A DNA stretch of 64,000 nt, from NCBI RefSeq assembly GCF_002078875.1, contig NC_034414.1, forward strand, positions 34,007,660-34,071,659. Reading direction: 5' to 3'. This document shows, piece by piece, positions 5,254 to 48,172 of the stretch (its first letter is position 1; each line of letters begins with the position of its first letter). The notes under the pieces were generated by a model. It ran no database searches, was not told the DNA's origin, and saw nothing but the letters and a program-made list of their open reading frames with translations. The stretch is from Numida meleagris. Its lineage: Eukaryota; Chordata; Aves; Galliformes; Numididae. Both the position numbers and the translations under genes were made by a program.

Positions 5254-5622
5254 AGAGACCTCACTGCTCTCTTCAAATACCTGAAAGGTGATTGCAGTGA
5301 GAGCGGGGTTGGTCTCTCCTCACTGGTGACAGGTGACAGGACAAGGGGAAAGGGCCTCAAGTTGCGCCAGGGGAGGTTTAGGTTGGCTATCAGGAAAAGC
5401 TTCTTTACAGAAAGGGTTGTTAAGCACTGGAATAGGCTCCTCGGAGAGGTGGTTGAGTCACCACCCCTGAATGTGTTTAAAAACCATTTGGATGTGGTGC
5501 TCGGGGACATGATTTAGCGGTGGATTGTTAGAGTAAGGGTAGTATGGTTAGGTTGCAGTTGGACTTGATGGTCTTGAAGGTCCTTTCCAACCTGAGCAAT
5601 TCTATGATTCTATGATTCTATG
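5254..5622 (+). mobile_element. CR1 LINE 3' fragment, plus orientation
   Basis: The fragment holds the last codons of CR1 ORF2 and the 3' untranslated region. It ends in three copies of ATTCTATG, the octamer tail typical of CR1. The plus-strand reading contains [20 protein letters not shown] and stops at the TAG of ATGATTTAG near 5517. It is nearly identical to the 3' part of the CR1 at 14867-15440, with roughly eight differences over about 370 bases by eye. Both copies therefore come from one comparatively recent subfamily. Confidence 0.93.
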
Positions 5623-11539: not shown

Positions 11540-12084
11540 ATTGTTATTGGTATTCCACATCATAACATCATGTAGTACCCTGGGAGTTAAAGAGTTAATG
11601 CTCCAGCTTTGTGGATCTTTGATAGTTTCGGGTATACCTGTCTCAGAAGAGAAGAACTACACATCCCAGAGGACTGCTCACAGTTCTGTTTCCATTTTCC
11701 GTTCAGAGGGAAAGATAAAACTGTTCACAGGTCACAAGATGGTCCCCTTTTTTCCCTTTCTGTTCATCTCAGCTGCATGTGCTCCCTAGCTGTCTTGCCT
11801 TCAGCATTAGAGTGAGGCCTTCGGTTTTTGGACACTCTCTCTCTCAGTTTATTTATTAGCCTCAATTCCAATTATATTGTATGATATTGGGTTATCTTGC
11901 ATTCCAATATTATATTTAGTAAATTAGTTTTCCCCTTCAGATCACTGCTGCTGTTTTGTTTTTAGGCTCATCTCCCATCTCCTTACCCTTTCCTCTTTTC
12001 CCTCTTTACTGTCACATGGCTCTGTGGGTCCCCTCACCCCATTAGTCACAGAACCAGCCCAAACCGGCCCATACGTTGATGACA
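11540..12084 (+). mobile_element. Main-family solo LTR, longer subfamily, 5' end clipped
   Basis: It contains ATTCCACATCATAACATCAT and AGTTAAAGAGTTAATGCTCC, both shared with the LTR at 16941-17520. The right end is GTTGATGACA, a variant of the family's usual GTTGACA terminus. The family start TGTCATGG is missing, so about 24 bases are absent or diverged at the left. The element belongs to the longer (about 580-bp) subfamily, which carries the AGTTAAAGAGTTAATGC segment absent from the 529-bp copies. No primer site or internal region follows. Confidence 0.85.
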
Positions 12085-12558: not shown

Positions 12559-13088
12559 TGTCAACGGTTTATGGGCGTTCGGCCCGGTTCCGTGACGAAG
12601 GGGACAGGGGATCCACGGGTCCACACCCCGTGAAAAGGGAAAAGGGAAAAAGGGGAAGGAGATGGCCCTGAGAGCAAAGAACAGCGGCAACAATCTGAGG
12701 AGAAACAAACTAATTTACTAAATAAAATATCGGAATGCAAAACAACACACTATAATACAATATAAATACAATTTAAGCTGATAAATTCAATACAGAGAGA
12801 GAGAATGTCCCAAAATCAAGGTAGGCCTTACTCTACTACCGACGATAAGACGGCTGGAGAGCGAGGTGCTGCCAAGACGAGAGACGGGCGGAAAAAGGGA
12901 GGAGGTCTCGTGATCTGCAAGTTTTTATACTGCGAGCTTTTATCTTTTCCCTCCGGCTGGAAAATGGTAACAGAGGAGCAAAGTACCGTGGGGACTGTAG
13001 TAGTCCTTCTCTTCTGAGAACCAGGTATATCCACTACATGATGTTATGATGTGGAATACCAATAACCGAAAATCACAAAACCATGACA
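12559..13088 (-). mobile_element. Main-family solo LTR, complete, minus strand
   Basis: It runs from TGTCAACGG to CCATGACA on the plus strand, so the element reads TGTCATGG to GTTGACA on the minus strand over 530 bases. An exact 5-bp duplication CCGTT flanks it at 12554-12558 and 13089-13093. It carries the family's TATA box on the minus strand (TTTTTATA at 12922-12929). It inserted ten bases from one end of the older LTR, so it is the younger of the pair. No internal region is present, so it is a solo LTR left by recombination between two LTRs. Confidence 0.93.
12922..12929 (-). promoter_or_regulatory. TATA box of the main-family LTR
   Basis: TATAAAAA on the minus strand lies in the segment AAAGCTCGCAGTATAAAAAC, which is conserved in the copies at 21641 and 47186. 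Confidence 0.65.
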
Positions 13089-14866: not shown

Positions 14867-15440
14867 AATCCTGCTCCTGTACTCGGCATTGGTGAGGCCC
14901 CACCTCAAGTACTGTGTTCAGTTTTGGGCACCTCAGTACAGAAAGGACATTGAGGTGCTGGAGCAGGTCCAAAGAAGGGCAACAAGGCTGGTGAAGGGCT
15001 TGGAGAATATGCCCTACAAGGAGAGTCTAAAGGAACTGGGGCTGTTTAGTCTGGGGAAGAGGAGGCTGAGGGGAGACCTTATTGCTCTCTTCAAATACCT
15101 GAAAGGTGATTGCAGTGAGAGCGGGGTTGGTCTCTCCTCACTGGTGACAGGTGACAGGACAAGGGGAAAGGGCCTCAAGTTGCACCAGGGGAAGTTTAGG
15201 TTGGATATCAGGAAAAACTTCCTTACAGAAAGGGTTGTTAAGCACTGGAATAGGCTCCTCGGAGAGGTGGTTGAGTCACCACCCCTGAATGTGTTTAAAA
15301 ACCATTTGGATGTGGTGCTCAGGGACATGATTTAGCGGTGGATTGTTAGAGTAAGGGTAGTATGGTTAGGTTGCAGTTGGACTTGATGATCTTGAAGGTC
15401 TTTTCCGACCTGAGCAATTCTATGATTCTATGATTCTATG
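14867..15440 (+). mobile_element. CR1 LINE 3' fragment with readable ORF2 C-terminus
   Basis: It begins in CR1 ORF2 (GAATCCTGCTCCTGTACTCG) and runs through the stop codon and 3' region to three tandem ATTCTATG octamers. Few frame-breaking changes are seen, so it is among the least decayed CR1 copies in the window. It is the longer sibling of the copy at 5254-5622. The 5' truncation is typical of incomplete target-primed reverse transcription. Confidence 0.95.
14889..15335 (+). pseudogene. CR1 ORF2 C-terminal fragment
   Basis: A 148-codon open frame encodes the C-terminal end of CR1 ORF2, downstream of the reverse transcriptase catalytic core. Recognisable strings are [20 protein letters not shown] and [20 protein letters not shown]. 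The frame closes at the natural ORF2 stop. The endonuclease and the catalytic domain are absent because of 5' truncation, so it cannot encode a working enzyme. The first methionine is incidental; the frame is open upstream. Confidence 0.85.
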
Positions 15441-16940: not shown

Positions 16941-17520
16941 TGTCATGGTTTTATTATTTTTGTTATCAGTATTCCACATCATAACATCATGTAGTGCACT
17001 GGGAGTTAAAGAGTTAATGCTCCAGTTCTGTGGTTTGTCGATATTTCTAGGTACCTGGTTCTCAGAAGAGAAGAAGAACTACATACCCCAGAGAACTTTG
17101 CTGTTTCTTTTTTCATTCAGAAGGAAAGATAAAACTGTTTGCATATCACAAGACGTCCTTTCTTTTTTCCCTTTCTGCTCATCTCAGCTGCATGTGCTCC
17201 CTAGCTGTCTCACCTTCAGCATTAGAGTAAGGTCTTCAGTTTGTTGGGCACTCTCTTTCTCACTCATTTTATTTGATTTATTAGCTTCAATTTCAATTAT
17301 ATTGTATGATTTTGTATTATATTGTGTTACCTTGCATTCCGATATCATATTTAGTAAATTAGTTTGTTTCTCCTCAGATCGTCTCCACTGTTTTGTTTTA
17401 GGCTCATCTCCCTACCCTTTTCCCATTTACCCCTTTCCTCTTTCCCGGGGCATAGGTCTGTGGGTCCCCCCACCCCATTAGTCATGGAACCAGACAGAAC
17501 TGGCCCGTAAACTGTTGACA
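16941..17520 (+). mobile_element. Main-family solo LTR, longer subfamily, complete
   Basis: It spans TGTCATGG to GTTGACA over 580 bases, with an exact 5-bp duplication CCCAC on both sides (16936-16940 and 17521-17525). It carries the AGTTAAAGAGTTAATGC segment also present at 11540-12084. The TATA segment found in the 529-bp copies is not clear here. The 178-codon frame across it is a pass through LTR sequence, not a gene. Confidence 0.93.
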
Positions 17521-21282: not shown

Positions 21283-21640
21283 TGTAATGGTTTTGTGATT
21301 TTCGGTTGTTGGTATTCCGCATCATAACATCATGTAGTGTATGTACCTGGTTCTCAGAAGAGAAGGACTACTACAGTCCCCACGGTACTTTGCTCCTCTG
21401 TTACCATTTCCGGCGAGAGGGAAAAGATAAAAACTTGCAGATCATGAGACCTCCTCCCTTTTCTTTCTGCCCGTCTCTCGTCCTGGCAGCACCTCGCTCC
21501 CCAGCTGTCTTATCGTCGGTAGTAGAGTAAGGCCTACCTTGATTTTGGGACATTCTCTCTCTCTGTATTGAATTTATCCACTTAAATTGTAATTATATTG
21601 TATTATGGTGTGTTGTTTTGCATTCCGATATCTTATTTAG

Positions 21641-22169
21641 TGTCATGGTTTTGTGATTTTCGGTTATTGGTACTCCACATCATAACATCATGTAGTGGAT
21701 GTACCTAGTTCTCAGAAGAGAAAGACTACTACATTCCCCATGGTACTTTTCTCCTCTGTTACCATTTTCCAGCTGGAGGGAAAAGATAAAAGCTTGCAGT
21801 ATAAAAACTTGCAGATCACAAGACCTCATCCCTTTTCTGGCCATCTCTCGTCTTGGCAGCACCTCGCTCTCCAGCCGTCTTATCGTTGGTAGTAGAGTAA
21901 GGCCTACCTTAATTTTGGGACATTCTCTCTCTCTGTATTGGATTTATCAGCTTAAATTGTATTTATATTGTATTATAGTGTGTTGTTTTGCATTCCGATA
22001 TCTTATTTAGTAAATAAGTTTGTTTCTCCTCAGATTGTTGCTGCTGTTCTTTGCTCTCAGAGCCATCTCCTTACCCTTTTCCCCTTTTCCCTTTTCCCGG
22101 GGTGTGGACCCATGGATCCCCTGTCCCCTTCGTCACGGAACCGGGCCGAATGCCTGTAAACCGTTGACA
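21641..22169 (+). mobile_element. Main-family solo LTR, complete, inserted in another LTR
   Basis: It spans TGTCATGG to GTTGACA over 529 bases. The flanks TTTAG (left) and ATTAG (right) are a 5-base duplication with one mismatch. It keeps the TATA box at 21800-21807. Because it splits another member of the same family in the same orientation, the family was active at two different times at this site. Confidence 0.93.
21800..21807 (+). promoter_or_regulatory. TATA box of the main-family LTR
   Basis: TATAAAAA lies between two copies of the heptamer CTTGCAG. It is preserved in this copy and lost in the outer LTR. Confidence 0.65.
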
Positions 22170-22321
22170 ATTAGTAAATTAATTTGTTTCTCCTCAGATT
22201 GTTGCCACTGTCTTTGCTCTCAGGCCCATTTCCTTACCCTTTTTTTCCCCTTTTCCCGGGGCATGGGTCCATGGGTCCCATTCGTCACAGAACCAGGCCA
22301 AATGCCCGTAAACTGTTGACA

Positions 22322-47092: not shown

Positions 47093-47185
47093 AGAATTTC
47101 TAGGTTTTTGTTCTTATTTTGAAGAGAAAGGATTTGGAAATATGAGATTTTACTTGAGAGGAAAAGCAGCTTATTCGGCATTCTT
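47093..47185. repeat. Left copy of 93-bp direct repeat flanking an LTR/tRNA insertion
   Basis: The segment from AGAATTTCTAGG to GCATTCTT is repeated at 48080-48172 with a single difference (G at 47177, A at 48164). The left copy ends on the base before the LTR start and the right copy begins where the tRNA-like sequence ends. It therefore behaves like a very long target-site duplication. Confidence 0.95.
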
Positions 47186-47714
47186 TGTCATGGTTTTATG
47201 ATTTTCGGTTATTGGTACTCCACATCATAACATCATGTAGTGAATGTACCTGGTCCTCAGAAGAGAAGGACTACTACAGTCCCCACGGTACTTTGCTCCT
47301 CTGTTACCATTTTCCAGCCGGAGGGAAAAGATAAAAGCTCGCAGTATAAAAACTTGCAGATCACGAGAGCTCGTCCCTTTTTCCGCCGTCTCTCGTCTTG
47401 GCAGCACCTCGCTCTCCAGCCATCTTATCGTCGGTAGTAGAGTAAGGCCTACCTTGATTTTGGGACATTCTCTCTCTCTGCATTGGATTTATCAGCTTAA
47501 ATTGTAATTATATTGTATTATAGTGTGTTGTTTTGCATTCCGAGATCTTATTTAGTAAATTAGTTTGTTTCTCCTCAGATTGTTGCCGCTGTTCTTTGCT
47601 CTCAGGGCCATCTCCTTACCCTTTTCCCCTTTTTCCTTTTCCCGGGGCATGGGCCCGTGGATCCCCCGTCCCCTTCGTCACGGAACCGGGCCTAACGCCC
47701 GTAAACCATTGACA
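47186..47714 (+). mobile_element. Main-family LTR, complete
   Basis: It spans TGTCATGG to ATTGACA over 529 bases, with the TATA box at 47345-47352. It is very similar to the copy at 21641-22169 and to the minus-strand copy at 12559-13088. It lacks the usual 5-base duplication: its left flank is the 93-bp repeat and its right flank is a single N followed by a second LTR piece. Confidence 0.93.
47345..47352 (+). promoter_or_regulatory. TATA box of the main-family LTR
   Basis: TATAAAAA lies in the conserved GCTCGCAGTATAAAAACTTG context. Transcription would be expected to start roughly 30 bases downstream. Confidence 0.65.
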
Positions 47715-47715
47715 N
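47715..47715. other. Single N, probable assembly join
   Basis: A lone N separates a complete LTR from a partial copy of the same LTR's 3' third. This is where two contig ends with overlapping sequence may have been joined without merging. Confidence 0.9.
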
Positions 47716-47876
47716 ATCTTATTTAGTAAATTAGTTTGTTTCTCCTCAGATTGTTGCCGCTGTTCTTTGCTCTCAGGGCCATCTCCTTACCCTTATCCCT
47801 TTTCCCGGGGCGTGGACCCGTGGATCCCCGTCCCCTTTGTCACGGAACCAGGCCGAACGCCCATAAACTGTTGACA
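47716..47876 (+). mobile_element. Partial main-family LTR (3' third)
   Basis: It starts at ATCTTATTTAG, which corresponds to about position 360 of the complete LTR, and ends GTTGACA. It differs from the neighbouring LTR at several bases and by a small deletion, so it is not a simple copy error. It is followed by leader-like sequence, so it acts as the 5' LTR end of whatever lies to its right. Confidence 0.88.
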
Positions 47877-48012
47877 TTTTTTGGTGGAGAATGCGGGCAG
47901 TAAGTCTGTGTATATATAGGTATACATTTCTGTGTGTGTAATGCATGTTAATTATTGTTTGTTTGCATATGTATATTGACATGATGTAGTGATATGGAAT
48001 AAGGGGTGGAAA
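47877..48012 (+). mobile_element. Leader-like sequence after the partial LTR
   Basis: TTTTT is followed by TGGTGGAGAATGCGGGCA (47882-47899), placed where a primer binding site would be. Its first nine bases equal the complement of a tRNA-Ala 3' end, but the rest needs gaps. The remaining about 110 bases are T- and G-rich (TGTGTGTG, TATATATAG) and encode nothing. A string ACATGATGTAGTG near 47980 resembles ACATCATGTAGTG of the LTR itself. Confidence 0.5.
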
Positions 48013-48080
48013 TGGTTCCCTCACCGGGAATCGAAGCCGGGCCGCGGCGGTGAGAGTGCCGAATCCTAACCACTAGACCA
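48013..48080 (-). pseudogene. tRNA-Glu (CTC) sequence, 5' truncated, with CCA end
   Basis: On the minus strand this reads nucleotides 8 to 75 of tRNA-Glu, including an anticodon loop CTCTCAC (anticodon CTC) and the 3' CCA. CCA is added after transcription in eukaryotes, so its presence points to copying from a mature tRNA. The 5' acceptor strand is missing. Three substitutions are seen against the usual vertebrate sequence as I know it. They lie in the acceptor/T-stem junction, the conserved first base pair of the T loop, and the anticodon stem. It should not be a working gene, because the B box and acceptor stem are damaged. Confidence 0.88.
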
Positions 48081-48172
48081 GAATTTCTAGGTTTTTGTTC
48101 TTATTTTGAAGAGAAAGGATTTGGAAATATGAGATTTTACTTGAGAGGAAAAGCAGCTTATTCAGCATTCTT
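48080..48172. repeat. Right copy of 93-bp direct repeat
   Basis: It matches 47093-47185 at 92 of 93 positions. Its first base (A) could equally be tRNA nucleotide 8 in reverse complement, a one-base microhomology at the junction. Confidence 0.95.

Follow-up and report, generated by a model that had tools for sequence, protein, structure and literature searches.

The window analysed here (the whole stretch of 64,000 nucleotides, G000:C9:34007660-34071659) belongs to a 1.04-Gb assembly of 2461 contigs, which was also the genome searched. Within it, an insertion of 894 bp (47186-48079) lies between two copies of a 93-bp host sequence that differ at a single position (G at 47177 versus A at 48164) and abut the edges of the insertion to the base (Table 1). 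The insertion begins with TGTCATGG, the LTR terminus of its family, and ends in an Rfam tRNA match on the minus strand, so that the first-pass annotation, which had claimed both the 93-bp host repeat and an insertion running from an LTR terminus into an antisense tRNA-Glu, had its outline right. When the window was compared with itself (megablast, word 20, dust on; plus-strand repeats of at least 50 bp and at least 95% identity considered), one other such repeat was found, a 368-bp pair elsewhere, and the 93-bp repeat is therefore not a matter of chance. The long duplication of 93 bp at the element is known from one assembly alone.

Table 1. Features of the insertion and of its flanking duplication (positions in the window)
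Feature	Position	Strand	Basis or remark
Left host-duplication copy	47093..47185	+	92/93 identical to 48080-48172
Complete LTR, 529 bp, TGTCA...TTGACA	47186..47714	+	29 other full-length copies read in genome
Single N	47715..47715	.	directly behind 3' end of first LTR
Second, partial LTR (R-U5, LTR position 360 to end)	47716..47876	+	9 mismatches and 9 gap columns (8 + 1) versus first
Primer binding site (PBS), 18 nt	47882..47899	+	complement of TGCCCGCATTCTCCACCA, exact match
Internal segment, 112 nt, ending in polypurine tract	47900..48011	+	precedes 3' LTR in other copies
Polypurine tract (PPT) AAGGGGTGGAA	48001..48011	+	end of 112-nt segment
One extra A between PPT and tRNA copy	48012..48012	+	sequence read
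tRNA-Glu sequence, anticodon CTC, CCA to about position 9	48013..48079	-	Rfam, alignment, genome loci
Right host-duplication copy	48080..48172	+	92/93 identical to 47093-47185

The members of the 368-bp pair (5255-5622 and 15073-15440) are direct repeats of 97% identity, the second of which overlaps a CR1-like reading frame. The window contains reading frames that appear CR1-like, and it looks avian. A gap of 27 N at 1669-1695 lies within an (AGAAT)n array.

The partial second R-U5 behind the single N went unmentioned in the first-pass annotation. Tandem duplication of U5 is ruled out as its origin, as the two R-U5 pieces are different copies of the family. It is either the trace of a separate event, in which an LTR nested in this LTR later recombined, or the product of misassembly at the N. 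If an LTR had nested here, as is seen at 21283-22321 and in L002, and the two 5' parts had then recombined, the outcome would be exactly the doubled R-U5 seen; a misjoin would likewise give it. Together with the N, the doubled R-U5 is a sign of imperfect assembly at this place, and contig joining at the N might then be held responsible for the 93-bp repeat or the tRNA junction as well. We consider this highly improbable. The N does lie directly behind the LTR end, beside a doubled R-U5 that is identical to the matching part of the first copy over its first 79 letters, but this identity, considered as the trace of overlapping contig ends (p 0.003), is weakened as evidence of overlap by the 6 of 29 other copies that also match the majority there. 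In addition, at least 298 bp separate the N from the tRNA junction and from where either 93-bp copy meets the element, and the junctions fall at meaningful boundaries (TG, PBS end, PPT end and CCA), which are not what a misjoin would choose. The artefact near the N that had been offered as an alternative on first reading may affect the doubled R-U5; from the inner edges of the 93-bp copies, however, the N is at least 365 bp away.

A stretch of TTTTT separates the second R-U5 from the PBS. The sequence to which the PBS is complementary, TGCCCGCATTCTCCACCA, is presumably the CCA-ended 3' end of a vertebrate tRNA-Ala. The same 18-mer is printed as a grass carp small RNA, the "microRNA" cid-miRn-131, in PMC4698583; it ends in CCA and looks like a 3' tRNA fragment. 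The PBS motif stands behind the LTR in three other loci as well (L007, L008 and L070, with small changes in the first two), and so it is the family's own.

The genome search with 47900-48079 (best 40 of 210 candidates scored; 30 loci kept, one of them the window's own) identified what follows the PBS. Apart from the window's own match, all 39 break off somewhere from query position 112 to 119, and in the window the similarity to the internal 3' region goes no further than 48011. Directly behind the 112-nt segment comes the start of U3 in 25 of the 29 other loci from these best 40 candidates, the exceptions being L041 and L042, which carry an inverted U3 end, and L048 and L033; the 112 nt are therefore the end of the internal region with its PPT. 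The 5' leaders of L007, L008 and L070 differ from 47900-48011, which indicates that the internal region between PBS and the 112-nt segment has been deleted here. The first-pass annotation had called this segment a leader, a reading that has to be given up in favour of the PPT-proximal 3' end of the internal region, as the segment precedes the 3' LTR elsewhere and the true leaders are different. The idea that 47900-48079 is filler of other origin was dropped, since genomic copies put the segment before the 3' LTR. The order of the element is thus LTR, PBS, internal deletion, PPT, and then tRNA-Glu in place of the 3' LTR.

The tRNA-Glu sequence is not a normal primer retained at the PBS. The PBS is of the tRNA-Ala type and stops at 18 nt, no tRNA sequence continues from it, and the tRNA-Glu copy follows 113 nt further on. 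The Rfam tRNA match (48024-48080, 25.3 bits, E 0.023) is below the gathering score of 29 and leaves model positions 1-7 and 64-71 uncovered; in direct alignment, 63 of 68 letters are identical to human tRNA-Glu (UUC), CCA included. The copy ends at position 8 or 9, one A (48080, position 8) being ambiguous with the host repeat.

All six candidates in the genome search for tRNA-Glu were scored; as very common words were skipped, at least five loci exist besides the insert. The five that were found match the query only from 4 to 67, lack the CCA and are all called tRNA-Glu by ARAGORN (three with anticodon CTC, two with TTC); the closest two differ from the insert in 4 of 64 letters. Run on the window and on the insert, ARAGORN calls no tRNA gene. 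The presence of CCA in the insert and its absence from these five loci show that the sequence was copied from a mature tRNA, and a patch of a tRNA gene is ruled out as the source on the same grounds. The copy extends past position 58, where plus-strand synthesis on a tRNA normally stops (PMC13191261). At letters 31, 53 and 67 (conventional numbering) it differs from all five other loci. Three such differences are more than the one change in the 93-bp copies would suggest, not significantly so (Fisher p 0.31), and these letters are copying errors, later mutations or the mark of an unassembled gene.

As an exact pattern, the PPT-tRNA junction has one match in the genome, the locus itself, and there is accordingly no sign of a tRNA-derived SINE or a recurrent LTR-tRNA element with this junction. 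Exact searches with one or two short patterns gave no match in IMG/VR or in prokaryote genomes. The suggestion, made on first reading, of a reverse-transcribed product of LTR, leader and tRNA is therefore upheld in that a transcript ended in tRNA, as the CCA indicates, and fails for the leader.

How unusual the duplication is can be judged from other members of the LTR family. The genome search with the insertion listed 44 matches (best 40 of 5054 candidates scored), from which 30 loci were kept including the one under study, leaving 29 other full-length LTR copies for comparison. Within this sample from the best 40 candidates, all 30 LTRs start with TG, and the others are flanked by exact duplications of 5 bp (23 of 29) or 6 bp (1 of 29); in L003 and L025, 4 of 5 letters agree when matched by eye, in L007 and L008 the LTR is followed by the PBS so that the right end lies elsewhere, and L030 has no recognisable flanking duplication. 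We also looked for repeats across the LTR at E<=1e-4, taking 600 bp to the left and 1000 bp to the right (for L007 and L008 the right side is internal sequence): none of the 29 other loci has one, and the locus under study is the only positive of the 30. Thus, 93 bp here stand against 5-6 bp in 24 of 29 other copies, and the earlier judgement that this is not normal integration was sound.

Of the other LTRs in the window, those at 12559-13088 and 16941-17520 have the duplications AACGG and CCCAC; the LTR at 11541-12084 was left out of these readings. At 21283-22321, where the outer LTR has the four-letter duplication GGAG, an LTR is nested within the R-U5 region of another of the same family, and L002 (G000:C1:28550258-28551326) has an LTR nested at the same R-U5 site. 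The TTTAG duplication around the nested LTR is exact in L002 and has 4 of 5 letters in the window; the shared site reflects either an insertion hot spot or a shared origin.

Long repeats around a provirus need not date from its insertion. Later recombination has been offered as the source of long duplications at HML-2 loci (PMC5488345), and the 93-bp copies could in principle be pseudo-duplications of this kind, or the result of local duplication. We regard this as quite unlikely here, for the copies abut both edges of the element to the base, and no further repeat across the element is found in the flanks (600 bp to the left and 1000 bp to the right of the LTR).

The two ends of the element differ in character. 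On the left, the TG at 47186 is preceded by host TT, whereas in PPT context TG is preceded by AA. The AA is gone at this end, which means that two terminal letters have been lost, as integrase processing, which removes two terminal letters (PMC5041404), would leave it. The left end, with its TG start and absent AA, is thus integrase-like. The right end is abnormal, consisting of PPT, a single A and the complement of tRNA-Glu with no 3' LTR behind it, and the duplication is far above the family norm. In work with HIV and avian vectors, proviruses with one bad end were joined by integrase at the good end, and the bad end was extended by host polymerases on nearby templates, most commonly leaving duplications much greater than 5 bp (PMC5041404). 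The locus has each structural feature of such a one-ended aberrant provirus; integrase would have acted on the left, and host enzymes on the right. We therefore think that the locus is probably a germline fossil of aberrant, one-ended integration of an endogenous retrovirus, in which a defective transcript was joined by integrase at its good end and by host repair at its tRNA end. Against this, L030 shows no flanking duplication, and odd right ends also occur without tRNA, L048 and L033 having other sequence behind the PPT.

Joining by integrase at one end has to be weighed against capture without integrase: ligation of the reverse transcript into a double-strand break whose staggered ends of about 93 nt were filled in. 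Such capture would yield exactly one long direct duplication and would tolerate any right end. A stagger of 93 nt is unusual, however, and on the left the element starts precisely at the processed LTR terminus, with AA gone, a point at which blunt or trimmed capture would arrive only by luck. Capture at a staggered break, which the first-pass annotation had favoured, is consequently not needed: with a processed LTR terminus on the left, one-ended joining explains the duplication better, and we hold capture to be unlikely. We give still less credence to a chimaera made by a LINE enzyme that copied an antisense LTR transcript and a tRNA. LINE enzymes do form chimaeras with small RNAs elsewhere, but there is no tail at either junction, the left end is a processed LTR terminus, and PBS and PPT stand in retroviral order; we therefore consider this origin barely credible.

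Under one-ended integration, reverse transcription would have produced a short defective DNA, composed of the LTR and the 18-nt PBS followed by a jump over the internal genes that landed 112 nt before the 3' LTR. The DNA would then have reached the PPT and continued into a copy of mature tRNA-Glu, although the events may have occurred in another order. The U3 end, being normal, would have been processed and joined to host DNA by integrase, while the tRNA end would have been no substrate for this enzyme; host enzymes would instead have extended it and attached it a short way off, so that 93 bp of the target were copied, as precedent suggests. The tRNA may have served as a wrong minus-strand primer beside the PPT, or as a template that reverse transcriptase entered at the CCA end.

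The joints inside the element allow some further conjecture. At the joint between PBS and 112-nt segment, 10 of the final 14 letters of the PBS agree with those that stand before GTAAGT; of 1487 positions this is the only one with such a score in L032 and L049, and in L045 it is one of 3. The length of 14 was picked after looking, and other lengths give 7/10, 8/12, 10/16, 10/18 and 11/20. As far as these letters go, the joint would suit a misplaced transfer of plus-strand strong-stop DNA. The leader of L078, from a related family, has 11 of 12 letters in common with the region of the joint, and a homologous template switch from a leader like that of L078 or L079 would also be possible.

The family of L078 and L079 is related to the present LTR family and shares its PBS motif, and the leaders of these two loci begin with GTGAGTCTGT or GTGAATCTGT, resembling the PPT-proximal GTAAGTCTGT of the family studied here. 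They are also the two other matches to the pattern of the joint between PBS and 112-nt segment (up to 2 mismatches) and are without the 112-nt segment, which disposes of a lineage of mini-elements sharing the same deletion from PBS to PPT.

At the joint between PPT and tRNA, letters 6-10 of U3, TGGTT, are the first five letters of the tRNA-Glu complement, a match noticed post hoc for which 0.009 would be expected in 8 start positions at window frequency. Priming by the wrong tRNA, with mature tRNA-Glu starting minus-strand synthesis at the U3 start beside the PPT and so leading to a natural germline one-ended integration, is a conceivable but rather doubtful account of this joint. Methylation of the tRNA-Glu would have to be low enough for copying to pass position 58 and come close to the 5' end, and the resulting linear DNA would have a good U3 end on one side and a tRNA end on the other. 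The TGTC then expected between PPT and tRNA is, however, missing. Reverse transcriptase may equally well have left its template at the PPT end and resumed at the CCA end of the tRNA, with one untemplated A added. The break falls at this PPT end in L041, L042 and L048, too.

The element resembles several known systems in part. Aberrant integrations of avian sarcoma-leukosis and HIV vectors described by the Hughes laboratory likewise have one normal end and another that is truncated or carries extra sequence, and their host duplication is usually much longer than 5 bp; those integrations followed mutation or drug treatment in culture, whereas here we are dealing with a germline fossil whose bad end is made of PPT and tRNA copy (PMC5041404). 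Germline LTR elements with long flanking duplications are known from HERV-K (HML-2), where PMC5488345 gives 8 loci with duplications >10 bp. Six of these duplications measure 61-450 bp, a truncated provirus has 111 bp, and for 2 of the 8 loci the empty site was determined; the sections consulted describe no tRNA copy or reverse-transcription fault at their ends. In 2-LTR circle junctions with PPT or tRNA/PBS sequence, primer-derived sequence makes the viral end unfit for integration; there the normal primer is kept at the PBS and the DNA circularises, while here a different tRNA stands at the PPT and the DNA is integrated (PMC9198661). In read-through plus-strand strong-stop DNA, unmodified tRNA is copied past position 58 toward its 5' end, joined to U5-PBS and not, as here, to the PPT (PMC13191261). 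A limited literature search, weak as evidence of absence, found no description of a tRNA-ended provirus. One-ended events have been described for vectors, and long duplications for HERV-K; to these the fossil with its tRNA end adds a new variant. It suggests that the reverse-transcription faults of cultured viruses (misused tRNA, jumps at the PPT end and one bad end) also happen in the germline and are inherited.

One other copy provides a contrast. In L042 (G000:C1717:202236-202347 and following), the PPT is followed by 27 nt that end in an inverted U3 terminus, and then by CAAGG. L074 (C1717:195126), which shares contig and strand with L042 and lies 7.1 kb upstream of its 112-nt segment, has CAAGG with the start of U3; the first 100 bp of the LTR are visible there before a run of N. 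CAAGG thus stands on both sides of the L042 provirus, 7.2 kb apart; when one mismatch is allowed, the pattern of CAAGG plus U3 start has 66 matches across the genome, including 8 exact ones. Apparently, two U3-type ends were used by integrase in L042, and this single case is suggestive of a 5-bp duplication accompanying a right end that is wrong but seemingly integrase-usable. Within one genome, the copies offer a natural test of the one-ended rule, a usable end with 5 bp in L042 against 93 bp at the locus described here. There is one case on each side, and this pair could become a statistic if PPT-ended copies were surveyed throughout the genome. Of the remaining odd PPT ends, L041 (G000:C35:22911808-22911920), with 11 nt of inverted U3 terminus behind the PPT and then other sequence, is of the same kind as L042; L048 diverges at the PPT end, and L033 after the first four letters of U3.
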